Source: a virus
Virus record (IMG/VR): IMGVR_UViG_3300025674_000186
Span: 1 to 33,640 of that record
DNA: 33,640 bases
Reading direction: 5' to 3' (one strand)
In this document: positions 4,909-31,431 of the stretch, piece after piece
Layout: every line of letters starts with the position of its first letter
Numbering within the stretch: the stretch's first letter is position 1
Program-made: the position numbers and the translations under genes
Notes under the pieces: model-generated
What the model was told of the DNA's origin: nothing
What the model saw: only the letters and a program-made list of their open reading frames with translations
The model's database searches: none

Positions 4909-5591
4909 TTGCTATTATCGATGTAGATAGTTGTGTGTATCAATGCTCATGGGATCAGCCGAGCCTTGATGCTGCATTTGATAACTATCAGAATATATTA
5001 AATAAATATTGGATTGAGCCTGTATGGGCAGATGAAAAGATTATTTATTGTGCTGGCAAAGATAACTTTCGTTATAATCTTTGTCCTAATTATAAATCAA
5101 ATCGTAAAGATCCACCAGCTAAAGCTAAATACTTTAGGCCATTAATGGATTTAATTATTGAAAAAGAGTTAGCTATTCCGTCTCATGGTATGGAAGCTGA
5201 CGATATGGTTCGTATTAAAGCTACTGAATGCGCTAGTCTTAACCAAGACTTTACCGTAGTACATATTGATAAGGATCTTGATTGTATTCCAGGAAAGCAC
5301 TTTAATCCTAAGAAAGAAGAGTTCTATGAAATCGATGTTGATACCGCAGATCTTCTTTATTGGACTCAAATGCTTAAAGGTGATCCAACAGATAACTTGC
5401 CTGGATTACCTAAAGTTGGTCCTAAGAAAGCAGAAGCAATGCTTGCTGGTGTACCAATGAGTAGACGTAAGAAGCGTGTTATTGCAGCTTACAGAGCTAA
5501 ATATGGCGTAGTAAATTGGAAGGAGAAGTTATTAGAAACCGCAAATGGTATTCATATATTGCGGAATTCAACTGACTTCTTTGAGGTGTAA
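4905..5591 (+). CDS. 5'-3' exonuclease (FEN-like, T7 gp6-type role)
   Basis: The 228-aa protein carries the metal-binding acids of the PIN/FEN nuclease fold: D6 and D8 (IIDVDS), E97/D99/D100 (GMEADDM), D122/D124 (HIDKDLD), and D160/D163 (KGDPTDN). A helix-three-turn-helix follows (GLPKVGPKKA, residues 167-176). These enzymes remove RNA primers and degrade host DNA from 5' ends, and T7 gp6 plays this part in T7. Length is slightly below gp6 (300 aa). ATGA overlap with the preceding gene indicates coupled translation. It directly follows the DNA polymerase block, as in T7. Confidence 0.92.
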   Translation: MIAIIDVDSCVYQCSWDQPSLDAAFDNYQNILNKYWIEPVWADEKIIYCAGKDNFRYNLCPNYKSNRKDPPAKAKYFRPLMDLIIEKELAIPSHGMEADDMVRIKATECASLNQDFTVVHIDKDLDCIPGKHFNPKKEEFYEIDVDTADLLYWTQMLKGDPTDNLPGLPKVGPKKAEAMLAGVPMSRRKKRVIAAYRAKYGVVNWKEKLLETANGIHILRNSTDFFEV

Positions 5592-5592
5592 T

Positions 5593-6276
5593 ATGACTAC
5601 CAATACACAAGATCATCAACGTTATGAAGATGTTATCATAACAGAGGTAAGTAATGTTGACTCAGGAGGATGGGTCGGCATTACTACTGAAGAGCATGGT
5701 GAAATCAGATGTAAATCTAATCTTAGAACTAAACTTAAATTAAAGAAAGGCTGGGAAGGCGATTTAACTGTATGGATTAATCCTAAAAGTAATACTGTAT
5801 GCGTAGCCTTTGATCAGAAAGCTTGGCAAGCTACAGGAGCAGATGCAAAGCCGCATGGTCAATGGGAGTTAATTCCTAATATGACTGATATTAATCCATA
5901 TGAAAATGAAGGCTTTGTGTATATGATTACTGAAAAGTCTACTGGAAAGAAATATGTAGGCAAGAAATCATATTGGAATTACAGTAAAGGTAAACGTGTA
6001 AGACAATCTAATTGGAAAACATATGGTTCATCAGGCGTAGATACTTCACAAAAGGTTTCAGATAATCCTGAAGCATTTGATTACCTTATTATGGATGAAG
6101 CGCCTGACAAATCTTCACTTAATTACCTAGAAATTAAATGGCAAATAACTCTTAATGTTCTTACTGAGCTAGACGAGAACGGAGAGAAAGTTTATTATAA
6201 TAAAACACTTGGCAGTGAGAAATGGATGCTCACTAAATCATTTATAGAGGAATACAATGCGAAATCCAATGTATAA
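5593..6276 (+). CDS. GIY-YIG nuclease, 227 aa
   Basis: Residues 107-125 read GFVYMITEKSTGKKYVGKK, matching the GIY and YIG strands of GIY-YIG nucleases. Downstream are Arg/Lys (KGKRVRQ, 132-138), a candidate catalytic Glu at 180 (NYLEIKWQ) and an Asn near 203 (YYNKT), placed as in the family. The N-terminal 95 residues form a separate, probably beta-rich domain. The start at ATG 5593 follows GAGGTGTA, and an upstream in-frame extension would lie inside the exonuclease gene. It sits where a recombination or host-DNA-degrading endonuclease would be expected, and no T7 gp3-type endonuclease I was seen. A resolvase or debranching role is inference. A homing endonuclease is the main alternative. 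Confidence 0.75.
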   Translation: MTTNTQDHQRYEDVIITEVSNVDSGGWVGITTEEHGEIRCKSNLRTKLKLKKGWEGDLTVWINPKSNTVCVAFDQKAWQATGADAKPHGQWELIPNMTDINPYENEGFVYMITEKSTGKKYVGKKSYWNYSKGKRVRQSNWKTYGSSGVDTSQKVSDNPEAFDYLIMDEAPDKSSLNYLEIKWQITLNVLTELDENGEKVYYNKTLGSEKWMLTKSFIEEYNAKSNV

Positions 6277-11413: not shown

Positions 11414-14400
11414 TTAAGTAAATTGTGATCTTTTACGTTCTTCTTTTTTCAATTTATTTCTTCTTGCATCAGTTTCCACAATCATCTTATCAAGATCAGG
11501 TCTAATTCTAAGAATATCTATTGTTGCAAAGAAAAGCTGTTCAAAAAATTCAGCATCTACTTTAAAAGATTTATCACCTAAACTTTGATTAGGTTTTTCT
11601 GCTGCTAAACCACGCATTTGTTGTGCTGCTCTTTTAAATAATGCATTTCTTTCGTCTGTACTAATTCCTCTTACATCTGAGCTTATTATTGTTTTATAAC
11701 GTGGCGCTCCATTACTACCAATATTATAAAAATCACCTAAAGCTTTATATTCACCTTCTGTTCCTAAATCAAACATTTCACCTGTTTCTTTAGCTTGATT
11801 TATTTTAACTGTAATACGCTTAAGCATATCTTCAAATGAATCTTTTTCAGCTTTTAACATATTATATTTTTGATTTACTTCATCAAAAGTGCTATTAGCT
11901 GTTTGTTCTAAGTCTGTAAATGAATTAGCGTCACCAATAAATGCATCATAAATTTGCATTACCGTTGCAGTTGGATCACGTTTAACTGCTCTAGCTACGA
12001 CTAATTGCGCTATTGTAGCATCAATATTTTGTGTAGCATTAACTGCAGCTTGATTACGAAGCTTACTTCCTAAATCAAAAGAAGTATATTCTCCTTCACC
12101 TAAATATTTAATTGCTGCACTTGCAGATGCTGAAGGCACTCGCTCTTTTAATGAAATATCTGCAGCAAAACGTTTAGGACTTCCAGGTCTATTGCTTTGA
12201 GTTCCTGGGCCAAAGTTAAATTTAACTTGTCCTGTTGCAGTAATAGGCATATTACGTATTCCTGCAAGCATTGGGTCTTTATCTACATATTCAAAACCGC
12301 CTGACTGAACAGGTGCGCCATTTGCGCCTACAGTTACCATAATTTCATTAGCAAAATTATGCGCCCGACCAATACGTTTAGCCATTTTAGAATGTTCTAA
12401 TGCACCGCCTAATCCTAATCGTAATCCTTGTTCAATATGTTCTCTTAATTCTTGAATAAGTGTAGCTTCTGTTACACCATTTTCAATGATAACATTTTCA
12501 AATAATTCAGGATTATCGTTAATAAATTGCCTAGCATGTTGTTTATGATGTTTAGGATCTTTACCATAAATTGAAGTCATAATAGGTAATTTCATTAATT
12601 TTTTAATTAAGATTGGATTTGCTTTTATAGCATTAAATATATCACCCCAATAAAGTTTTCCTACTTCACCTGTTTGACTTGCCATGATAATAAATACATC
12701 ATCACGAATATCACCTTCTAAAGCTTCTGCTTCTTCTTTAGATAACGTAGCTAAATCTAAATCGGTTTCATAAGTATCTCCAATTTTTTGATATAACACT
12801 CCACCTTTTCTTAACAAGTTATCAACACCCATTTGGTAGCCTTGTATTACTGCTCCATTTGAGTTGCCATCAACTTCAGCTTTAACTCTTGTTCCAAACT
12901 TACCACCATCAGGAGTAATTAAGTAACGAGCTAATTCATGCAATCCATCTAAAGCAAAAAAGAAAGTATCATTATCATGATGCTGTTTTAAAAATGCTTG
13001 CAAATCTGGTGTAACATTTAATGGACTAGCGCTTGGTATTTTTGCACCAGCAGCAATAGCTTGTTGTACCCTTGTATTATGCTGTACATTATTTTGTGTA
13101 TATCTAAGTAATTGTCTACCCCATTTAGCTAAACGCATTAAAGGTTTACCTGTATTAGGATCTATTTCAGTTAACTCATCACGCAAAGCTTTTAATTGAT
13201 CGGCACGAGTCATTTTGTCTGCGCCTAAAATAACACTTCTTGCTATAACTCTAAAGAATCCTTCTTCTCTAGTAAACTTTTGGTAGCCTTTATCTCCTGG
13301 AGCTTTATTTCCATTACTTTCTGCTTTTTTAATAGCACTATTTAACGCTCTTCTTGCACCGCTAACTCCATCTTTTCCTTGTGCTGATTTAGTAATTAAT
13401 ACAGGCTCTGCACCATGAACTAAAAATCTAGCAAGTTTATTTGCTTGATAATTTAATTCATCGTTAGTAATCATTAGCCTTGTTGAGTTATTAATTGTAG
13501 TGTAACCATAATGAAATGTGGTGTTTACACGATTAAAACCATCTGCAAGTGTTTCTTTTCTTTCTGATAAATGATTTTCAATAATTTGTCTAGTATTAAA
13601 CTCTGCTGCTTCTTCAAAAGTTCTGTAAGGTCTTTCTCTTTGACTTCTTACATCAAAATAAGAGCCTAACATTGCAGGAGTTAATAATGGGTTTCCATTA
13701 CTATCTACTTTACTTCCTTTATCTTTGTAATCTTTTAATAGCTGCGCTCTTTTCTTTTGAAAATAAGCATTACTTTGTTTTGTTATATCTGAAAAAACAT
13801 TATTTGATGTATATTGTGTTCCGCTTGCTAATACTCCAGAATAAAGAATAGCAGAATGCATTGGTACAGTATGTGTTCGGCTTGCTAATGCATCAACCCC
13901 TTCTTGTACTATGTTTACACCATTTACTTTAACTCTATTTTCTAAGGGTAATGGTCCACCTGTATCTCTTTTTTGTACAAAAGCAGCAGCACCTCTCATG
14001 CGACCGCCCTCTGTTTGGACTAATGATACAGGCTTATCTCTAGTTGCAGACATCCCTAGCTTAGCGCGAATACCTTTTCGCATTGCATTAAGCTTTGCAT
14101 CTCCTGCTCTTGTAGTTTTAAATACAATTTTAGTATTACCTTCAGGTGTAGTGATTGTTTGTTCTTGAAATAAATTATTCCAGTTTGCACTAGCAAGACC
14201 TTGTAAAACTATTTCACCTACAATTCTATGTTCATCATCAGTTAATTTTGACTTATAACCATATCTATCTGATGCACCTGTAAACAAAGCATTAGGGTCT
14301 TGCATTTCAGGATCTGTCATTAATCGTTCTGCTAAACGAGATATCCCTGCGCCTAACACACCTCTATCTAATGCATTATCGTACTCTCTATCTGTAAGTG

Positions 14401-15289
14401 TATCTGTTTCACTATTCATTAATAGTGTTTTATTAGATATTTCTAATAGAGTAGCAATCATAAATGCTGCCCCTGCTTCTTCTCTTAATCCTGAATTAGG
14501 GTCTGAATTATCTTTAAGCAAATTTAATTTACGATCATTCTTTAAGGCAAAATTAAAAGTATCTGAATTCCTAAACAAAACGCCTTGCGGATCACTATCC
14601 ATTTCACTAGCTGATATGTTTTCAGTATCAATTTTATTTCCAAAGATTGTTAAACTTCCTGCGTCTGAATCAAAACCTTTGCGAGCAAAATTAACCATAT
14701 CACTAAAGTTTACAAACCCGTCTTTCTCACCGATTTCAGCCTTAACAAAGCTATCAATTTCTTTAGCTAATTGATCTCCTCCTGTTTCTTGAGTTAAGAT
14801 AGCACGAGGAGTAGCCGCTTCTTGCGTTAATGTTGCTTCAGCTGCTGCTTGAATTTCTGGTCTATTTAATTGACTAATTCTATCTGTTTGAGGATCTGGA
14901 AACAAACCTGCTTGCTCATACTGACGCATACCTGCTGCTTCTAATTCATCTACCATTGCTTCTGGTACTTGTATATCAGGAAAAGGCTGTATGCTTTCTT
15001 GTGGTCCAAGGTCTGCACGCTGAGTTCCTACAAACGTTTCTGCGCCTGTAGGATCCCCTGTTATCATTGTGTCTTGTAATTCTTCAACTGGTGTTTGAAC
15101 AATAGTTTCAGTTGGCGTGTCTAATCTTTCTTTTAAAGCTTGCTGGTCTGCCATTTCAGCAGCCATTGCTCTTGTTTGCTCTAACTCAGATTGCATAGAC
15201 TCTTGATCACGAAGTCGTTGATCGGCTTGCCTTCTTTGACTATAGAAGTCTGTACCAGCATTTCTTGATGTTACTATTTTCTGGGCCAT
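11414..15289 (-). CDS. Putative virion RNA polymerase (N4-type, compact), 1291 aa
   Basis: The catalytic motifs of single-subunit RNA polymerases are visible. Motif A is VDGNSNG (D807, compare T7 D537). Motif B is KKLMKLPIMTSIYG with K896, K900, M904, T905, Y908, G909 at exactly the spacing of T7 R627, K631, M635, T636, Y639, G640. Motif C is QIYDAF (D1115, compare T7 H811-D812). Before motif C, NIDATIAQLVV aligns with the SMDAAHMALTV of the T7-like enzyme in this window. Around 600-630, NNSTR (R604) then NYQANKLARFLVHGAEP aligns with DxxGR and its downstream strand, though the Gly is lost. D807-K900 spacing is 93 against 94 in T7. The first 160 residues are Gln/Glu/Thr-rich and disordered-looking. 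As the last gene of the structural arm, beside an ejection-type protein, it is probably packaged and injected, as in N4 (whose vRNAP is about 3500 aa). Packaging is inferred. Length and neighbours could alternatively suggest a plain internal virion protein, but the motif set argues against that. Confidence 0.8.
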   Translation of the reverse strand: MAQKIVTSRNAGTDFYSQRRQADQRLRDQESMQSELEQTRAMAAEMADQQALKERLDTPTETIVQTPVEELQDTMITGDPTGAETFVGTQRADLGPQESIQPFPDIQVPEAMVDELEAAGMRQYEQAGLFPDPQTDRISQLNRPEIQAAAEATLTQEAATPRAILTQETGGDQLAKEIDSFVKAEIGEKDGFVNFSDMVNFARKGFDSDAGSLTIFGNKIDTENISASEMDSDPQGVLFRNSDTFNFALKNDRKLNLLKDNSDPNSGLREEAGAAFMIATLLEISNKTLLMNSETDTLTDREYDNALDRGVLGAGISRLAERLMTDPEMQDPNALFTGASDRYGYKSKLTDDEHRIVGEIVLQGLASANWNNLFQEQTITTPEGNTKIVFKTTRAGDAKLNAMRKGIRAKLGMSATRDKPVSLVQTEGGRMRGAAAFVQKRDTGGPLPLENRVKVNGVNIVQEGVDALASRTHTVPMHSAILYSGVLASGTQYTSNNVFSDITKQSNAYFQKKRAQLLKDYKDKGSKVDSNGNPLLTPAMLGSYFDVRSQRERPYRTFEEAAEFNTRQIIENHLSERKETLADGFNRVNTTFHYGYTTINNSTRLMITNDELNYQANKLARFLVHGAEPVLITKSAQGKDGVSGARRALNSAIKKAESNGNKAPGDKGYQKFTREEGFFRVIARSVILGADKMTRADQLKALRDELTEIDPNTGKPLMRLAKWGRQLLRYTQNNVQHNTRVQQAIAAGAKIPSASPLNVTPDLQAFLKQHHDNDTFFFALDGLHELARYLITPDGGKFGTRVKAEVDGNSNGAVIQGYQMGVDNLLRKGGVLYQKIGDTYETDLDLATLSKEEAEALEGDIRDDVFIIMASQTGEVGKLYWGDIFNAIKANPILIKKLMKLPIMTSIYGKDPKHHKQHARQFINDNPELFENVIIENGVTEATLIQELREHIEQGLRLGLGGALEHSKMAKRIGRAHNFANEIMVTVGANGAPVQSGGFEYVDKDPMLAGIRNMPITATGQVKFNFGPGTQSNRPGSPKRFAADISLKERVPSASASAAIKYLGEGEYTSFDLGSKLRNQAAVNATQNIDATIAQLVVARAVKRDPTATVMQIYDAFIGDANSFTDLEQTANSTFDEVNQKYNMLKAEKDSFEDMLKRITVKINQAKETGEMFDLGTEGEYKALGDFYNIGSNGAPRYKTIISSDVRGISTDERNALFKRAAQQMRGLAAEKPNQSLGDKSFKVDAEFFEQLFFATIDILRIRPDLDKMIVETDARRNKLKKEERKRSQFT

Positions 15290-15291
15290 AA

Positions 15292-18200
15292 TTATTCTCC
15301 GTCTCTAAAGGCTCTCGGTACTTTTAATTGTGCAGCATCAGTTAATATCCCTCTTAAAACTGGGCTTGCAGAAACTACAGGTGTTATCTTAGTGACATCT
15401 TTAAGGAAGCCTTCGTAATCACCTTCTGCTACCTCTGCAACTGCATCTTTAGCTGTATTTAATATTCTTAATGCTGGCGCACCGCCTACAGTTTCACCAA
15501 ACAATCTTTCTACTAAGTTTTCTCCACGATCTTGATACATAGGTGCTGCAACTTGAAGTATACGTTCACCTGTACCTAGAATACCTGATGACATTAATGC
15601 ACGTTGAACTAGCTGTGCATCATTAAGGTATGGCGTACTGCCTCCAAACTTAATATAATCTTTAAGCCATTGTGAAGCACCTGCAACCCCCATCATAGTA
15701 ACCATAAGTGCAAATGTGTTATATTTCATTTTAGGACTACCATTTTTTAAATAGTCATTCCAAAGTCGAGGAACAATATTAGCAGTAAAAGTAGAAATAA
15801 AACCATTAAACTGTACAAATAATTGAAAATGCGGATCTTGATAAAACAAAGGTCTATTGTAGGCTTGTGGATTCTGAATACGATCATTAACAAAATACCA
15901 TGTAACAGTATCTAATTGATCATTTACTTCACTTCTTAATTCTACAATATCAGGATCTTGATTTCCATCATCCATATATTTATCAAATATTGTTTGACCA
16001 TTAGCATCAACATCAGGAAACATTATTGCTCTTTGAAGTTCAATAAACCTTTCTACATCCATACCTAAGTCAACTAATTGACGATAAACATCTAATTGAT
16101 CTTGATTATATGGTTCATCTTCTTTTTTAGCCATGAGTATGCGAATACGGTCACTGACAAAACCTGAAACCGAAGCAGCTGCCATTGATCTTTGCAACTG
16201 CGTAATCCCTGCAATACCTGTCCATTTAAAGAAAGCTTTTTGAAACCATGCTTTACTAACATCAACTTCTCCTAATCCATATCGTGTTGCTACTGTAGCG
16301 TCATCAGGAAATAAACCTGCTGCAATAAGATTTTGAACAGATTGGCGATATATAGGCGCTTTAGGTGCGTTTGCTAATGTCGGATGTACTTTCATCTTAG
16401 CAATATCTTTTAATCCACCTACCATTTCACCTACAAAAGTATGTATTGCATCATTAATAGCTTTCATTCCTGTTCCTTGGTATATTAACATAATAAACTC
16501 AGGAAAAGAACTAATTGCTGCAAAAGGCAAACCAATAATTGTAGTAAAGAAAGCACCTGTTCTTTGGAATGCTGCTAGCTTTCTATTTTTAATTGATTTA
16601 AAATTACCTGTTGCTGCATCAATTATGCTTTTAGTATGATAAGCCATTTCAGCTATTTCTTCTTTAGTTAAACCGTCTGCTTCCATTTCAGCAAACAATT
16701 GATCTAAGTGTTTGCCTCCTGCCCCAAAGTATTCTGTATAAGCTGCATACTTTGCTGTTTGATTAACTGTATTCATTGCATTTTGTAATATATTAGTATT
16801 AGCAAATTGTTCATAGCCAGGTTTTTTAGATAACGACTTAAGACCGCCCTTACCTGCTCCAGGAATATATTCAATTCCTTCAACAACAGAAAAATCAGTA
16901 GCATCTTCATTATTAGAAATTTTATTATATAGCATTTCTAATTCTGCTTCAGTATACAATTGATTTCCTTTATCATCAGTTGCATTTTTACGCATCCATT
17001 TAAACCATGCATCACGATTATTTCTTACTTTAGACCAATCCCAGCTTTGTTCATTTAACCATGAATCAGGATCATACTCTAAGTTTTCTCTATTTAAACC
17101 TTGATTTACATAAATACTATTCTTTAAATTATATTCATCAAATGCAAACTCTCTTAATTCAGCTATCGTTGCTTCAATTTGATCTGCATATTTTAAAGTC
17201 TCAGGACTTAATTGATTGCGATCACCATTAACCGCTGAATATTCGCGTATCATATCTGAAATTTTTTGTGAGTTTTTAACTCTATCAGACATTCCAAATC
17301 TTTTAAATACTCTTTGAGGATTTATTTTAGTTAAAAATTCAGCCCTGTATTTACTTGTTTGCGACTCAACATCTCTTCCTGAATATAATCTACCTAAAGG
17401 TTGACCAATTAAAGCATAGAGCTTTCTAGCTGCTGCAGAGCGCCTTAATAATTCAGGTCTAAACGCTGTTGTTGCTGCAGCTCGATATAACTCAGGTACA
17501 TATTTACTAGGATCTTTTAACTTAGTCCAAAAATTACCTCTTAATTTTTCACCAGCTGCTGCACGATTGCTTGCATCTGCACCGCCTTCTTTCTTTTTTG
17601 TTTTAGTGTTAAGATCTTTTGTAATATCATATATATTACCTTGCGGCCCTATCTCCATTCCTAGTTTACCAAACTCATTAAGCCGATCTACACGACCTAA
17701 CATTAAGCCTTTTTGCATTGCAGCACGATCACCTGCTTCAATGATTTGTCCTGCTGTACCAAAAGTAGCACCTAATGTTCCACCTGCAACTGCAGCTTGA
17801 GCAAGTATATTTGAAAATTCATTTGGATTAAAGTTTTCTTTTAATCCACCTTCTGATAATATATTAGAAGCAAGATAGCCTGTACCCTCTTGTCCGACTT
17901 CAGTAGCTAATTCACCAATGCCACCACGAGCAGAGCCTCTAAATATGTTTTTAATAATTGCACTATTATTAACGTGGTCTGAAGAAAAATTACCTATGCC
18001 TTCAATAGCGCCTTTGATTACTGATTTAGTTTCTTTTTTAACTAGCTCTTTAGCTTGTGCAGTAGATAATCCTCGTTCTTGTCTTAAATATTTATATACT
18101 GCTTGACGACCATTTGCAGTTAACAAAGCTGACGGAGGCATAATTGCAGCCATACCAAGACGATCTAATACTGCCATTGCAGTACCTGCCATCATAGCTC

Positions 18201-19305
18201 CTGCCGCTTCTGGTCTACCTTTTGGGCCTTTAATATCATTCCATACATTACCTGAATGTACACCAAACATTGAGCCATAAGCAATAGGCACACTTGCACC
18301 TAATGTTACTGGAGACAATACATGCCCTGCTGTAAGTGTAATTAAATAAGGCGCTGACATTGCCATATTATTAGTCATAAATTGCCATGCATCAAATAAA
18401 CCATCAACATCACGGTAATCAATATTACGAAGTATTGGCGATCTAGATAAATCTTCTTTAGCTATTTCAACATTTTCTGCACCCCAATTTTCAAGCGTTT
18501 CACTTCCTAGTGTTACCCCTGCTAACTCTGCAAAGCCTGCTAATGCAGTTGTCATTCCTTTCCATCCAGTGTTCCATGACTCAGTCATTTGATTATAGGC
18601 AACACCTTCTCTTGTTCTATCGCCATATCTAAAATCAATAGCGCTAAAAGGAACACTACGGCTATCATACTGTCCGTCTAATGCAACATTATAAGCTTTA
18701 CGATAGCCTTCCTCTGTTGCTAAGTTATACCCCTTTTGATCTGCAACTGTTTCAACTACTGCTTGTAAATATTCTTTCTCATTTAATGCAGCTTCTTTAA
18801 ATAAAACAGGTGTTTCTTTTACTTCTTGCAGTTCTTCATTTACTATATTAGCATAATCTCGTTTGCCACGTAGCTGTTCTTTTAACCTACCAGATTCAGC
18901 TGCTCGTTGTCCTTCTTCATCTGTAAATATATTTGTATCAACAGCGCCTGAGCGATATAAGGTATTAGTTAAATCTTCACCAACTGCATTTTGAATTCTA
19001 ACAAGACGACGACCAAAACTATCTACCTCACCTGTATCTATAATTTTATTAAAGCCACCTGTGCTTGCAATTTTAGATACTGCTGATGTTGTTTCTCTGC
19101 CTCCAAGTTGACCTCTTATAAAACGAGGTACTCCATCTTCAACAATTATTTTATTTGTTTCAGGTGCGTTATAACCTACAATACGGAGGTCTTGACCGCT
19201 TCCATCAGATATTGTATCTGCATCTACCCATTTGTAAGTCTTATTATCTGCACCTTGAAACTCTGCAAACTCAACATCTACAAATGCATCATTTTTTTCA
19301 GCCAT
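15292..19305 (-). CDS. Large internal virion protein with N-terminal nuclease (SNase-like) domain
   Basis: At 1337 aa this is the size of T7 gp16 (1318 aa) and occupies a comparable late position. Residues about 20-125 look like a staphylococcal-nuclease domain. VDADT (D28, D30) and LRIVGYNAPE supply R41 and E49 at the family's eight-residue spacing, DSFGRR supplies R99 (the R87 equivalent), and GEDLTNTLYRSGAV follows as in the family. One calcium ligand (D40) is replaced by N46. Hydrophobic, Gly/Ala-rich segments near 315-350, 368-395, 485-510, 913-943 and 1198-1218 could insert into host membrane during DNA ejection. It sits two bases upstream of the putative virion polymerase gene, with AGGAGG before its ATG, downstream of a promoter-like element. 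It is probably ejected with the genome. The nuclease activity is inferred. Confidence 0.75.
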   Translation of the reverse strand: MAEKNDAFVDVEFAEFQGADNKTYKWVDADTISDGSGQDLRIVGYNAPETNKIIVEDGVPRFIRGQLGGRETTSAVSKIASTGGFNKIIDTGEVDSFGRRLVRIQNAVGEDLTNTLYRSGAVDTNIFTDEEGQRAAESGRLKEQLRGKRDYANIVNEELQEVKETPVLFKEAALNEKEYLQAVVETVADQKGYNLATEEGYRKAYNVALDGQYDSRSVPFSAIDFRYGDRTREGVAYNQMTESWNTGWKGMTTALAGFAELAGVTLGSETLENWGAENVEIAKEDLSRSPILRNIDYRDVDGLFDAWQFMTNNMAMSAPYLITLTAGHVLSPVTLGASVPIAYGSMFGVHSGNVWNDIKGPKGRPEAAGAMMAGTAMAVLDRLGMAAIMPPSALLTANGRQAVYKYLRQERGLSTAQAKELVKKETKSVIKGAIEGIGNFSSDHVNNSAIIKNIFRGSARGGIGELATEVGQEGTGYLASNILSEGGLKENFNPNEFSNILAQAAVAGGTLGATFGTAGQIIEAGDRAAMQKGLMLGRVDRLNEFGKLGMEIGPQGNIYDITKDLNTKTKKKEGGADASNRAAAGEKLRGNFWTKLKDPSKYVPELYRAAATTAFRPELLRRSAAARKLYALIGQPLGRLYSGRDVESQTSKYRAEFLTKINPQRVFKRFGMSDRVKNSQKISDMIREYSAVNGDRNQLSPETLKYADQIEATIAELREFAFDEYNLKNSIYVNQGLNRENLEYDPDSWLNEQSWDWSKVRNNRDAWFKWMRKNATDDKGNQLYTEAELEMLYNKISNNEDATDFSVVEGIEYIPGAGKGGLKSLSKKPGYEQFANTNILQNAMNTVNQTAKYAAYTEYFGAGGKHLDQLFAEMEADGLTKEEIAEMAYHTKSIIDAATGNFKSIKNRKLAAFQRTGAFFTTIIGLPFAAISSFPEFIMLIYQGTGMKAINDAIHTFVGEMVGGLKDIAKMKVHPTLANAPKAPIYRQSVQNLIAAGLFPDDATVATRYGLGEVDVSKAWFQKAFFKWTGIAGITQLQRSMAAASVSGFVSDRIRILMAKKEDEPYNQDQLDVYRQLVDLGMDVERFIELQRAIMFPDVDANGQTIFDKYMDDGNQDPDIVELRSEVNDQLDTVTWYFVNDRIQNPQAYNRPLFYQDPHFQLFVQFNGFISTFTANIVPRLWNDYLKNGSPKMKYNTFALMVTMMGVAGASQWLKDYIKFGGSTPYLNDAQLVQRALMSSGILGTGERILQVAAPMYQDRGENLVERLFGETVGGAPALRILNTAKDAVAEVAEGDYEGFLKDVTKITPVVSASPVLRGILTDAAQLKVPRAFRDGE

Positions 19306-19381: not shown

Positions 19382-22306
19382 TTATCTTATTAGATTATTT
19401 TTCTTACCTATTCCAATAAGCCTTTCTATCTCATCAGGCTCAGTTTTACTTGCCCATAGAGTAAATGCGCTCCATTGTTTTTCAGGTTCTTTTTCATCAA
19501 ATCGATTTGCTGCATCAGAATTAAATTTAGCAGCTTGTTCTGGATCTCCAAACTTAGAATTTAAAATTGCCCAAGCTTGATAAGTACCCTGCCATTGATT
19601 ATAATAATCTTGAGCATAAGTTAAATAAGTACCATCTGGTTGTTTAATTCTTTGCTTTGGACTCTTAATTGTCATACTACGTTTAATTGCGTTATCTAAT
19701 TTACGCATATTAACTGGTGAAGTTTTACCTACAATTTCCATAGGTATACCTGTTAATACTTCACGAGTTTGCATATCAATATAGTCACGAACATTACGTG
19801 GCTCAATAGAAGACTTCTTTTGACTAAATGCAATTTTAGCTTTAATAAAGTCATCAATTCCCGCTTGAACTTTTGTTGCTAATGCATCTGCATCATTAAT
19901 TGAAACTCCATTTTGCCTAAGTATTTCTCTATAACGAGTTTCTGCTCTGTCTCCAATATCTTTTTCATTAAAGTAAACACGATCATCAAATGATTTTTTA
20001 TCTTTAGTTCCTTGAAAAAGACCTGCCTCGCTATTTCTTTGTTGAGAAGCTTCTTTAGCAAAATCAGAGAAATTCTTTTGCATAGCACCACGCCCTTGAA
20101 CGGACTCATCCCATGGTTCTATAAATCCTGCAAGGCTTGCTACCGATCTTAATTTACCTTCATATTCGACATAATCTAGTTTATCATCGCCTTCAAACAC
20201 TTGCACTTTACCTATTCCAGGAAGATAAGCGTTGCCTGCAAGTCCTTTTATTTTAACTCCTGCAGGTGCTTTCTTTTGAAGAACAGTATAATCTCTTCCC
20301 CTGCCTGCTTCAAACTCTTTGCGAGACTCTTCTGTAAAGTCTAAGTAATCATCATCACGAATATCTTTTTGATATTGTGCTTCAGCTGCTTCTATCCGTC
20401 CCATATATGTTTTAGCACTATAAGCAAATGAAGCGTTATGATCATACCCCATAAGACGACTACCTGTATAAACTAATGCCATACGAGCAAGTTCTTTTGG
20501 ACTAAACAAATCACCAAATGCATCTTTAAAAGCATTTATCGCAACTTTTTTCATGTCTGGAGGAGCGTTATCACCTTTATCTTTGAGGTCATCCTCATTT
20601 CCTGGAGGTGGTTGATCTTTTGAATCAACTGAATCTGCTACAGTTTTAAGTGTACTATATTGAGTTGAATTAGTTACACCTGAATCCTCAAGTTGTTCAT
20701 CTTTTGGTTCTTTAAATTCACCTGAGTCAACATCATAAGTTTGATTTTTTGCAGCTTCTTTAATTACATCTTCATTTTCATTTGCAATTTTTTCAGCATG
20801 ATCATCTCTTATTTTAGTAACTTCTTCTACTTTTGCCAAAGCAGCTTTATGAGCATTTATTAACTCACTAGAAACAGGTAATCCTTTTGCCTGATTATCT
20901 TTAATTTTATTACCAATTTTGTCAGCTTCTGCTTGTCTAGCTTTTACTTGACCACTATTAAAATTACCTACTAATCTATCTTTATCAGGCAGCATATCTA
21001 ATAATGTTGCGTTTGGAACTCCAGGCGCATCTAATGGGACAGGTACACCAAGAAATTCTGCAGGATACATAAAGGCTCTTTTAATTTGAGTTTTTGTTTG
21101 ATCCGATGGAGTTAAATAAGATAAAAAACTTTCATCTTCTTCAGGCTTTGGTGGCATCTGATTTACAGGAGGCACACCACGAGTACCATCATCAACACGA
21201 GGTCTTGCTTGTTCTAACATTTGAGCATCTGATACATCATCACTAGCTTGTGCTTTACTAATTAAAGAAAAACCTGATCCTTGATCAGCGTCTGCAGTTG
21301 CATAAGGCGTTTTAAATAATTCCATTTCTCTAGCTCTACGTGCTTCAAGTCCTGGAAGAACTTCACCACCTGCCATACGAAATTCTGAAGCTTCTTTTTG
21401 AAAAGTGTCAAAGTCACCTGCATTAAGTGCAGCACGAGCTTTACTTACTTCAAATTGAGGACCACCAATATTAAACAACAATGATTTAACTGCTGTTTGT
21501 TGATTAGGATTTAATTCAACATCAACTAAATTATTATAATCATTTTCTACAACTGCAATATCTTTTATTAATTGTTGATTTGCCTCTGCATCAGATAATT
21601 TGTCACCCATTTTAACACCGTAAGTGCTACCATATCCTATGGTTGGAACACCTGCTGGGTCTCGATAAGCTTCATTTCGAAGGCCTTCTTCTTCTTTTAA
21701 AAATTCAGCAAGCATACCTGTATTAGCATACCTAGGTATTTTACCGCCATCTGAGTTATACAAAGAACTAAAGTCCCAAGTATTCTTACGACTACTACGG
21801 TTAGGCTTGCTTTCTTCTAGCTTACCAAGATACTTTTGACCACCGCCTGATCCTTTACGTTCAGTAAATTGACCAATAGAACCATCTTGCAATCTTCTAT
21901 AAACAATTCCTGGAGGAGCAGGCGGAAGCGTTACTGCATCAACTGCACTTTGGTACAGCCCTGAAAGACCTGAAATAAATCCACCATCGGATTCATAAGT
22001 AGGAATAGGTCCACCTTGTGCCTTTTGTATCATGCGACCTTCTTCGTTCATTTGGTCAATCATTTCTTGATTGCCTGGAATACGAGAAGCCTCCGCATTA
22101 ACTACATTTTCTCCAGGAGTTAGCCATGCAGGTACTGTATCAGTTCCTTTAGGATCTCCAGGATGATTACTAGTGTCTGCACCATTATATCCATCAGGCA
22201 TATCAGGTATCATCATCATCATTGGTACAGTAACTTCTGGCTCAAAGAACTCTATGGAGAACATGTTACCATATCGGTCTTTATTAGTAAGACTTTTTAG
22301 TTTCAT
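19382..22306 (-). CDS. Internal virion protein with embedded GH24 lysozyme domain, 974 aa
   Basis: Residues about 198-335 form a T4-type lysozyme (GH24) domain. E207, D216 and T222 in EEGLRNEAYRDPAGVPTIGYG have the spacing of T4 E11/D20/T26, and the domain ends with GLEARRAREMELF, as in many muramidases. Upstream, LTPGENVVNAEA (about 63-74) matches a motif recurrent in phage tail and minor structural proteins. The C-terminal two thirds are charged and helical without a recognised domain. It is probably a virion-associated murein hydrolase that opens a local path through peptidoglycan during entry, the role of the transglycosylase in T7 gp16. It is flanked by the CFI-box protein and by the promoter/terminator gap. 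AGGAGA precedes the ATG. Confidence 0.8.
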   Translation of the reverse strand: MKLKSLTNKDRYGNMFSIEFFEPEVTVPMMMMIPDMPDGYNGADTSNHPGDPKGTDTVPAWLTPGENVVNAEASRIPGNQEMIDQMNEEGRMIQKAQGGPIPTYESDGGFISGLSGLYQSAVDAVTLPPAPPGIVYRRLQDGSIGQFTERKGSGGGQKYLGKLEESKPNRSSRKNTWDFSSLYNSDGGKIPRYANTGMLAEFLKEEEGLRNEAYRDPAGVPTIGYGSTYGVKMGDKLSDAEANQQLIKDIAVVENDYNNLVDVELNPNQQTAVKSLLFNIGGPQFEVSKARAALNAGDFDTFQKEASEFRMAGGEVLPGLEARRAREMELFKTPYATADADQGSGFSLISKAQASDDVSDAQMLEQARPRVDDGTRGVPPVNQMPPKPEEDESFLSYLTPSDQTKTQIKRAFMYPAEFLGVPVPLDAPGVPNATLLDMLPDKDRLVGNFNSGQVKARQAEADKIGNKIKDNQAKGLPVSSELINAHKAALAKVEEVTKIRDDHAEKIANENEDVIKEAAKNQTYDVDSGEFKEPKDEQLEDSGVTNSTQYSTLKTVADSVDSKDQPPPGNEDDLKDKGDNAPPDMKKVAINAFKDAFGDLFSPKELARMALVYTGSRLMGYDHNASFAYSAKTYMGRIEAAEAQYQKDIRDDDYLDFTEESRKEFEAGRGRDYTVLQKKAPAGVKIKGLAGNAYLPGIGKVQVFEGDDKLDYVEYEGKLRSVASLAGFIEPWDESVQGRGAMQKNFSDFAKEASQQRNSEAGLFQGTKDKKSFDDRVYFNEKDIGDRAETRYREILRQNGVSINDADALATKVQAGIDDFIKAKIAFSQKKSSIEPRNVRDYIDMQTREVLTGIPMEIVGKTSPVNMRKLDNAIKRSMTIKSPKQRIKQPDGTYLTYAQDYYNQWQGTYQAWAILNSKFGDPEQAAKFNSDAANRFDEKEPEKQWSAFTLWASKTEPDEIERLIGIGKKNNLIR

Positions 22307-22316
22307 TTACTATCTC

Positions 22317-23483
22317 CTATAACCAAGTTTCTTTAAGTTTTAATACCATAGTTTTATAAATATTATAAGCATCATGCGGTTGATTGTTATCTATTTTTGC
22401 AATTGATAAATCAATTTGTTTTTCAATCCAATCCCAATCTGAATGATCTTTAGGAATAGCTTTAATAATAGCAGGTGCAATATCGTAATATTCTTTAAGG
22501 TCGTCTGACTCTTTTCCACCCATAAATGTATCTCTAAAAGATCTAAGCTTAGTTAAAGTTTCACCATCATCAGCTTCTCCTCGCCGATTAACAATAGCAG
22601 TTGTAATAAAACAAATACTATCGCTACCACCACCACCTCCACTATCAGAGCTAGTATCAGGAGTATCCCAATTTTGCCAATCAGAATTATACGCATCATC
22701 ATCATCGTCTGAAGTGCCAATGTCTATATTAGTAAAGTCAGTTCCTACACCTGAATAATCATCATCACCACCATCGTCATATTGATAATCATTATTGCTA
22801 GTAGCATTACCTGAGTCATCATCATACACAGTCATATCATCAGTATAACCAGTTCCTGAAAAATCATCTACTCCTGTGCTAGGGTCTTCCCAATCCATCC
22901 AACTGCCGCCTTCAAGATCATCAATATCATCATCTGGTGTTGAAGGGCTAGTAGTTATTTCAAATCCACCGCCAGAGTATTCATCATCAATAGGCTCATT
23001 ATTACTGTACCAAGTATTTCCACCGTCATAACTAGTAGCTCCAGGCCCAGTATTATCATCACTATCATCAGAAACAAAGTAAGAACCGCCGCCAGTACTA
23101 CCTCCTCCTGTATCAGGATCAGTAGGCGTAAAAGGAGGTATGTTGTTATCCGCTCCAGGATCATAGTTTATGTTTTGTCTAAACCCTATCATAGGTTGTA
23201 CACCAAAACTAGGGGTATCTGTTCTATCCATTATAGATTGAAACTGTGGATTATTAGCAAAAGGATCTGCCATAGTAACTGTACCAGCATTAGTAGCAGG
23301 AGGCGCTCCTGTATAAGGAACAGTACCGCCTTGTCCTGGAACTAGTTGTGCAGTTGTTGTTACTGCACCTGCTTTTGCTGAAGATGGGCTACCCTGCGCT
23401 GGAGCAAAATCATTTGTATTCATATACCTATCACCGTATTTGGGAAGGTAACTTATTCCAGGTTGATACGGGGTTTGTGTCAT
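22317..23483 (-). CDS. Acidic repeat protein with C-terminal CFI-box domain, 388 aa
   Basis: The N-terminal ~115 residues are Pro/Gly/Thr-rich. The middle (about 115-285) is a low-complexity Asp/Ser/Gly/Tyr region with repeated DDD and GGG clusters. The C-terminal ~100 residues begin CFITTAIV and continue with LTKLRSFRDTF and YYDIAPAIIKAI, the layout of the CFI-box C-terminal domain found at the end of repeat-rich proteins in bacteria and phages. Its function is unknown. The position among internal virion proteins suggests it is structural. Clustered Asp residues may bind calcium. AGGAGAG precedes the ATG. Confidence 0.7.
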   Translation of the reverse strand: MTQTPYQPGISYLPKYGDRYMNTNDFAPAQGSPSSAKAGAVTTTAQLVPGQGGTVPYTGAPPATNAGTVTMADPFANNPQFQSIMDRTDTPSFGVQPMIGFRQNINYDPGADNNIPPFTPTDPDTGGGSTGGGSYFVSDDSDDNTGPGATSYDGGNTWYSNNEPIDDEYSGGGFEITTSPSTPDDDIDDLEGGSWMDWEDPSTGVDDFSGTGYTDDMTVYDDDSGNATSNNDYQYDDGGDDDYSGVGTDFTNIDIGTSDDDDDAYNSDWQNWDTPDTSSDSGGGGGSDSICFITTAIVNRRGEADDGETLTKLRSFRDTFMGGKESDDLKEYYDIAPAIIKAIPKDHSDWDWIEKQIDLSIAKIDNNQPHDAYNIYKTMVLKLKETWL

Positions 23484-29691: not shown

Positions 29692-31431
29692 TTAAGCGCA
29701 CTCTTTTTGGCCAGTTGTCGGGTCGAAAAAGCAAGCCTCTGCCGTTCCTTCTTCTTTAACCAACGGCGTAACCGTGCTAGATACCGTCTCTTTTTCTTCC
29801 ACGGTTTCGTTAAGGATACCGTATCTTTTACCACTAAGTCTAAACGTTGTACATCCCTTCGCCCTGCCTTTCCAGGCATCAACATAAACCTGTTTGAACT
29901 CATCATAAGTAACATCATCTCCTACATTGCAAGTTTTAGAACACGCTGAATCAATGTATTCTTGTGCAAGTAATAGTACTTTAAGATGTTCTTGTACGTT
30001 TGTTTCGTTAGCTGTTTTACCTTTAACTCCCATTGAGTAAGCATAATCTTCAACTCGTTCAACTTTTGGTCCTTCAAAAGTCTGGATAGTTCTATCGTAG
30101 TAATGACTAAAGACAGGTTCAATTCCTCCTGATACGTTATCTGCGCATAGGCTAATCGTGCCTGTAGGCGCAATTGAAGTTAAGTGGCTGTTTCTAATTC
30201 CGTTTGTTTTAATAGACGCATACACATCATGACTAAGTGATTTAATAAATTCGCCTTCTAAATATTGTTCATTATAGAGTGGAAAAGCTCCTTTTTCTGC
30301 TGCAAGTTCAGATGAGGTTCTATATGTTTCGTCTCTGAGAGTTTTGAAGACGGTAGCCATCCAAGCAAGGAAGTCATCTGAAGCATACGGGTATCCCAAT
30401 AATTCGCCAGCATTGGCAAGTCCTGTGACTCCAAGCCCCATTCTTCGTTTATTTTTTGCTTCATCCTCTTGCTCCTTTAATGGATAAATAGTTCTATCAA
30501 TAACATTATCCATAGCTCTTACTACGTGTTTAATATCTTGTTTAAAGTGTTCATAATCAAACTCATCTGATTCTACATATTGAGTTAAATTAAATGAACC
30601 AAGAAGACAAGCACCAAAAGCAGGGAGTGGTTGTTCACCACAAGGATTAGTAGCTTCTATTGTTTCACAATACCATAAATTATTATTGTCGTTTATTCTA
30701 TCAATAAACAATACCCCAGGCTCTGCCCAGTCCCATGTTGATTCCATAATTTCAGACCACAGTTCCCTCGCAGATATTCGTGAGTAAGTAGTACCGTCAA
30801 AAGTAAGATCAAAGCCATCATCATCTTCATTTAATATGGCCTCCATAAACTTATCAGTAATTCCCACTGAGATGTTAAAGCCAGTAAGCTTATCACTATT
30901 ACGCTTAGCTCGAATAAAATCAAAAATATCAGGGTGATCGACACGCAATACGCCCATTTGCGCTCCACGGCGATGGCCACTTGACGCGATAGTTTGACAG
31001 ATAGAATCAAAAATGCCCATAAAACTGACAGGGCCGCTAGATTTAGAATCAAGAGATTTAATAAGATCGCCCCTAGGACGAATACGAGAAAAATCGTACC
31101 CAATGCCGCCTCCTCGTCTCATTGTTTCTGCAGCATTACAAGCTCTTTCCATAATACTATTCATAGAGTCTTCAATAACTCCTGATACAAAACAATTGTA
31201 AGCAGTAGTAATTCGAGGACTACCCATAGCGTTTTGAACACGACCAGCAGGAAGAAAACGCATATTGCCTAAGATATCTTCCAAATGATATTGATGTTCT
31301 ATTCCGTCTGATAATGCCCTTGCTATGCGTTTAATTTTACCGTCAAAATCCTCATCTTGTAATCGGTATTTCATCTGATCGATTTCTTCTGAAATAGGCA
31401 TCGATGGACCTACATATGCTGTGTTTCTCAT
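29692..31431 (-). CDS. nrdJ: Ribonucleoside-diphosphate/triphosphate reductase, class II (B12-dependent)
   Basis: The 579-aa enzyme has the class II signatures. LPAGRVQNAMGS leads into NCFVSG (first redox Cys) and RRGGGIGYDFS. NPCGEQPLP carries the radical Cys and Glu, followed by GACLLGSFNLTQYV. SIAPTGTISL is the phosphate-binding loop. The C-terminus ends with two cysteines at 567 and 578 that can re-reduce the active site. It is at the short end for NrdJ. No small subunit gene is nearby, as expected for a cobalamin enzyme. It makes deoxyribonucleotides for phage replication. Unusually, it sits inside the late arm between lysozyme and tail nozzle, directly after candidate promoter P1. Confidence 0.9.
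   Translation of the reverse strand: MRNTAYVGPSMPISEEIDQMKYRLQDEDFDGKIKRIARALSDGIEHQYHLEDILGNMRFLPAGRVQNAMGSPRITTAYNCFVSGVIEDSMNSIMERACNAAETMRRGGGIGYDFSRIRPRGDLIKSLDSKSSGPVSFMGIFDSICQTIASSGHRRGAQMGVLRVDHPDIFDFIRAKRNSDKLTGFNISVGITDKFMEAILNEDDDGFDLTFDGTTYSRISARELWSEIMESTWDWAEPGVLFIDRINDNNNLWYCETIEATNPCGEQPLPAFGACLLGSFNLTQYVESDEFDYEHFKQDIKHVVRAMDNVIDRTIYPLKEQEDEAKNKRRMGLGVTGLANAGELLGYPYASDDFLAWMATVFKTLRDETYRTSSELAAEKGAFPLYNEQYLEGEFIKSLSHDVYASIKTNGIRNSHLTSIAPTGTISLCADNVSGGIEPVFSHYYDRTIQTFEGPKVERVEDYAYSMGVKGKTANETNVQEHLKVLLLAQEYIDSACSKTCNVGDDVTYDEFKQVYVDAWKGRAKGCTTFRLSGKRYGILNETVEEKETVSSTVTPLVKEEGTAEACFFDPTTGQKECA

Follow-up and report, generated by a model that had tools for sequence, protein, structure and literature searches.

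A divergent staphylococcal nuclease domain fused to a LUZ24-type body in a putative phage entry protein

A large protein encoded in a 33.6 kb virus record (IMG/VR record IMGVR_UViG_3300025674_000186, positions 1 to 33,640, analysed in full and hereafter the window) carries in its N-terminal ~150 residues what is, judged from profile comparison and a predicted structure, a genuine, divergent staphylococcal nuclease (SNase) domain. Our best explanation, to which we give about an even chance, is that of a virion entry (ejection) protein with a competent SNase in front of a LUZ24-type body, which would probably cut host nucleic acid at entry; as part of this explanation the window is read as coming from a marine phage that is podovirus-like and broadly of CRP-7 type. 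Two convergent blocks make up the window and meet near 11.4 kb, the rightward one devoted to replication (T7-like RNA polymerase (RNAP), DNA polymerase A and primase-helicase) and the leftward one to structural genes, amongst which the SNase-fusion gene sits between the genes for a peptidoglycan hydrolase and a single-subunit RNAP. The open-reading frame marked out in the preliminary description of this DNA exists, on the minus strand and with 1337 amino acids counted from its ATG, and its full-length relatives in viral contigs share 45–68% identity with it. The gene, its two parts and its neighbours lie as follows:

15292..19305, minus strand: predicted virion (ejection-type) protein of 1337 aa with an N-terminal SNase domain (open-reading frame from ATG; relatives; PHROG 6958)
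18859..19251, minus strand: SNase-type domain, residues about 19–149 (AlphaFold model with PDB matches; profile-profile match to cellular SNases)
15295..18798, minus strand: body, about residues 170–1337, homologous to LUZ24/tf-type particle proteins without SNase (profile matches to Pseudomonas phage tf_51, Vibrio VpJYP1, CRP-7 gp34 and phiA008)
19382..22306, minus strand: upstream phage lysozyme-domain protein (peptidoglycan hydrolase), 974 aa (PF00959, 118.5 bits at residues 204–327)
11414..15289, minus strand: downstream protein of 1291 aa, predicted divergent single-subunit RNAP (fold matches; conserved catalytic motifs)

The SNase domain was seen only through wider relatives and profile-profile comparison, as the direct searches gave no SNase match: this was the case for scans of the window protein alone against Pfam and against PHROG, and for searches of Pfam, PHROG and PDB sequences with the window domain and a first profile of six sequences, whilst whole-protein profile searches of PDB returned nothing. 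A domain profile of 28 sequences, compared with 33 aligned SNase domains from cellular genomes, reached an hhalign probability of 98.7 and a score of 82.6, where 55 column-shuffled decoys scored at most 9.8 and the reversed profile 3.6. Against an HMM of the cellular SNases the window protein alone scored 26.8 bits over residues 23–129. Assignment to PF00565, the family named in the preliminary description, fails for the window protein on its own and succeeds for a distant member (L047, 21.2 bits against a Pfam cut-off of 21) and for the domain of Aeromonas phage phiA008 (36.3 bits).

The AlphaFold model of the domain (pLDDT 84.5) found only SNases among the 50 matches listed by Foldseek (E about 1e-4) and matched an SNase in VIA (Z 9.3, 111 residues aligned, rmsd 3.5), which agrees with the SNase OB-fold claimed earlier from the letters. 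TM-scores of the model against SNases were moderate, at about 0.4 to 0.57, as is expected from 19% identity and loop insertions. In a BFVD search with the same model the best match was a 1368-residue protein, the same length as CRP-7 gp34, and the third a 1342-residue uncultured-phage protein bearing the automatic name ‘Staphylococcal nuclease (SNase-like)’, so the fusion had already been spotted by software. That the window protein drew no SNase match from Pfam or PHROG is what one would expect were the resemblance a chance motif on an unrelated fold, yet the distance between the profile score and the best decoy, the SNase fold matches and the two relatives above the Pfam cut-off rule this out with near certainty.

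In the hhalign alignment with the cellular SNases, the catalytic positions are taken by D28/D30, R41, N46, E49 and R99, and D30, R41, N46, E49 and R99 are all found where they had previously been placed:

19216..19224, minus strand: D28-A29-D30, corresponding to SNase D19-G20-D21 (Ca2+ site); D28 and D30 invariant in 39/39 relatives
19183..19185, minus strand: R41, corresponding to SNase R35; invariant in 39/39
19159..19170, minus strand: N46-A47-P48-E49, corresponding to SNase D40-T41-P42-E43; E49 in 39/39, position 46 with 36 N and 3 D
19009..19011, minus strand: R99, corresponding to SNase R87; invariant in 39/39

The preliminary description had staked its reading on the conservation of the catalytic residues in homologues. 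In 39 non-redundant relatives with a mean pairwise identity of 32% (minimum 11%), just five of the 141 columns show no variation at all, and these five are D28, D30, R41, E49 and R99. On alignment evidence this invariance, despite the low mean identity, is the pattern of selection for catalysis, and a catalytically competent domain is accordingly predicted as a component of our best explanation. The same description had suspected that N46 weakens activity; the alignments do not support this, as Asn, the usual residue in the phage relatives, is also present at the equivalent site in 15 of the 33 cellular domains, one of which has the top Pfam score of them all. Inactivation of the SNase by N46 was set aside as unlikely, since Asn at the SNase D40 site lies within the variation of the family. 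SNase folds do act as binding modules in some proteins, and to have a nuclease lying against packaged DNA seems hazardous, both of which would suit a domain that has lost catalysis and, within the internal core, binds nucleic acid or plays a structural part; we regard this as distinctly unlikely, as E49 would drift if catalysis were lost, whereas it and the four other catalytic residues are the sole fully invariant columns in these diverged relatives. Set beside the SNase family (PF00565, thermonuclease), the phage domain shares the fold, the catalytic set D19/D21/R35/E43/R87 and significant profile homology, and has Asn at the D40 position like many cellular members, but the family enzyme is a secreted, single-domain protein, whereas here the domain is fused to a phage virion protein of ~1170 residues.

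The body points to a particle protein. PHROG 6958 (‘virion structural protein’) matches body residues 180–446 (E 3e-21), and the body also matches particle proteins from LUZ24-type phages and from phages of Vibrio, with profile hits to tf_51 (E 2e-13) and VpJYP1 (E 9e-10). Mass spectrometry of LUZ24 virions identified nine proteins, seven of them with homologues in phage tf (PMC3517423). The LUZ24/tf-type gene (tf_51, LUZ24 gp50; PHROG 6958) has a homologous body and a matching position, being a large structural gene of the late set that precedes a convergent early block. Homology and conserved neighbourhood together argue for the virion and entry assignment made earlier. Unlike the window protein, tf_51 has no SNase domain and starts almost directly with the body (its residue 55 aligns at profile position 235), so the domain is a module gained by, or lost from, a common body.

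Other parts of the earlier characterisation fared less well. The ‘membrane-like segments’ ascribed to the protein are only weakly present (the best 21-residue window reaches 1.61 on the Kyte–Doolittle scale), and of the comparison with the T7 ejection protein gp16 the size stands, whilst sequence homology is not detectable (hhalign probability 0.2). T7 gp16 is likewise the last in a series of core genes and likewise carries its enzymatic domain at the N terminus, but that domain is a different enzyme, a transglycosylase; as only size and position fit, we did not adopt the body as a gp16 homologue.

Relatives in viral contigs were found first at 5 and then at 14 full-protein loci, and at 31 domain loci, several on the same contigs. 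A body-only search, run to remove the bias of searching with the domain, recovered 34 relatives; the SNase domain is present in every one of the 31 whose N terminus is intact, and the other three are cut by the contig end. The position of the domain is fixed at the N terminus across dozens of phages. Scanning genome contigs for prophage copies gave none, and only two alphaproteobacterial SNase proteins turned up. Two isolated phages, Roseobacter phage CRP-7 (gp34, about 24–28% identity) and phiA008, encode the same SNase-plus-body architecture in proteins annotated only as ‘hypothetical’. In phiA008 the 2050-aa protein (L123:1048-7200) has, in contrast to the window protein, a long stretch between the SNase domain and the conserved, homologous C-terminal body, and its SNase is more canonical (GIDTEE). 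In another, distant relative (L045:5881-10134), body residues 311–586 match PHROG 2206 (virion RNA polymerase) in its N-terminal part (E 1e-8), suggesting that the body and the N-terminal part of the N4 virion RNAP (vRNAP) may share ancestry.

In the slot upstream of the SNase-fusion gene, relatives encode transglycosylase or pesticin-type domains instead of the lysozyme; the wall-cutting domain varies between the 19382–22306 protein and its equivalents in L016, L045 and L050, which indicates that it is swapped whilst the SNase and the RNAP stay. CRP-7 gp35, upstream of gp34, is a pesticin-type hydrolase, and gp33, downstream, is a large protein with an IHDALI motif.

The downstream protein is, by its motifs and its model, a divergent single-subunit RNAP, unannotated and newly recognised here. 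Its model matched only single-subunit RNAPs among the PDB matches listed, with VIA Z-scores of 21.8 for T7 RNAP and 20.9 for the N4 mini-vRNAP, the latter giving the longest alignment (685 residues) among the matches listed. The catalytic motifs are:

12845..12883, minus strand: RNAP motif A, KAEVDGNSNGAVI, with D807 (hhalign alignment to N4 vRNAP EADG at 1554–1557)
12563..12604, minus strand: RNAP motif B, K896..K900..MT..Y908-G909 (motif conservation)
11933..11959, minus strand: RNAP motif C, MQIYDAFIG, with D1115 (HDS/HDA in distant relatives)

A pattern-based search for close relatives of this open-reading frame found none; in 12 relatives chosen via synteny, motifs A (D807-G), B (K896/K900/Y908-G) and C (Y-D1115) are invariant. 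hhalign independently pairs motif A with E1554-A-D1556-G of N4 vRNAP, where we take D1556, in the published numbering, to be the catalytic Asp. A more distant group encodes a homologue in the same slot, mostly with the canonical HDS/HDA form of motif C, to which the IHDALI motif of CRP-7 gp33 corresponds. Its location in the structural block and its similarity to N4 vRNAP suggest that the protein is probably a virion RNAP. The same phage encodes a second, ordinary T7-like RNAP, and this two-polymerase set-up resembles that of N4. The N4 virion RNA polymerase (gp50) is alike in fold and motifs; it is, however, a single protein of 3500 residues, whereas here RNAP and body are in separate genes and an SNase is added.

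An intact catalytic SNase, together with the adjoining wall-cutting and RNAP genes, suggests that the phage probably delivers a nucleic-acid-cutting tool with its DNA. In the mechanism we propose, the hydrolase, the SNase-fusion protein and the RNAP would share the particle and be released from it on infection, in the manner of T7 gp14–16 and N4 vRNAP; the hydrolase would open the wall, the RNAP would start early transcription, and the SNase domain would cut nucleic acid where the phage enters, either within the envelope or immediately inside the cell. Like other SNases, it should need millimolar Ca2+, a requirement that would hold it inactive while virions assemble in the cytoplasm, where Ca2+ is low. 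The main objection is that a nonspecific nuclease in a Ca2+-permeable capsid in seawater should be a threat to the packaged genome.

The most likely target would be host nucleic acid rather than the phage’s own DNA. SNases are not sequence-specific, which fits poorly with genome processing, and we give a low probability to an active virion nuclease that trims, nicks or frees the phage genome during packaging or exit. The catalytic conservation would serve such a role equally well, the protein would adjoin the packaged DNA, and the virion DNA of the related phage tf contains site-specific nicks (PMC3517423). Tf is nicked, however, although its homologous protein lacks the SNase domain, so nicking does not need the domain; this, with the lack of specificity, favours host nucleic acid. 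A little less probable again is that the active domain does its work in the envelope or outside the cell, for instance by removing extracellular DNA from the cell surface, instead of attacking the cell interior. Seawater and periplasm are rich in Ca2+ and the cytoplasm is poor in it, and in T7 gp16 the peptidoglycan-cutting domain likewise sits at the N terminus, both of which would agree with action there, but the adjacent lysozyme and RNAP proteins point to an internal, delivered complex and not to a surface-exposed part. Returning to attack on host nucleic acid at entry, we tentatively extend it, with clearly less confidence than the basic proposal, to a widespread phage group whose particles may hold a three-protein entry kit (wall-cutting enzyme, nuclease and RNA polymerase), with a nuclease that might attack host nucleic acid or competing genetic elements and be controlled by the difference in Ca2+ between outside and inside.

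In ejection proteins, domains that cut peptidoglycan are already familiar, as is the RNA polymerase of N4. A conserved nuclease on such a protein would be a third type of enzyme to be delivered ahead of phage gene expression, and raises the testable puzzle of what it cuts and how the packaged genome is spared. Each part is known already; the combination of an SNase with a virion-protein body is a new variation on them. The preliminary description knew of no described podovirus ejection protein with this fusion, and we found no published description in the open-access literature, the automatic name in BFVD aside: a search for SNase or thermonuclease with ejection or internal virion proteins, in an open-access library with few subscription journals or preprints, gave nothing relevant, and the paper describing CRP-7 does not mention the nuclease domain of gp34 (it has no word beginning ‘nuclease’). 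CRP-7-type phages are described as widespread in the ocean (PMC6918029), and the present assignments would give a function to their ‘hypothetical’ proteins and suggest that the group has a virion-type RNA polymerase so far without annotation.

Elsewhere in the window, as in CRP-7, a B12-dependent ribonucleotide reductase and a T7-like RNAP are encoded nearby, and the ribonucleotide reductase gene (29692–31431, minus strand, barrel domain) lies, again as in CRP-7, inside the structural/late block and not among the replication genes. A 388-aa low-complexity protein (22317–23483, minus strand), rich in Asp, Gly and Ser and with a CFITTAIV segment near its end, has no Pfam match. Among the replication genes, a gene for a SegE-type GIY-YIG endonuclease (5545–6276, plus strand) overlaps the end of the preceding 228-aa open-reading frame by 47 bases.
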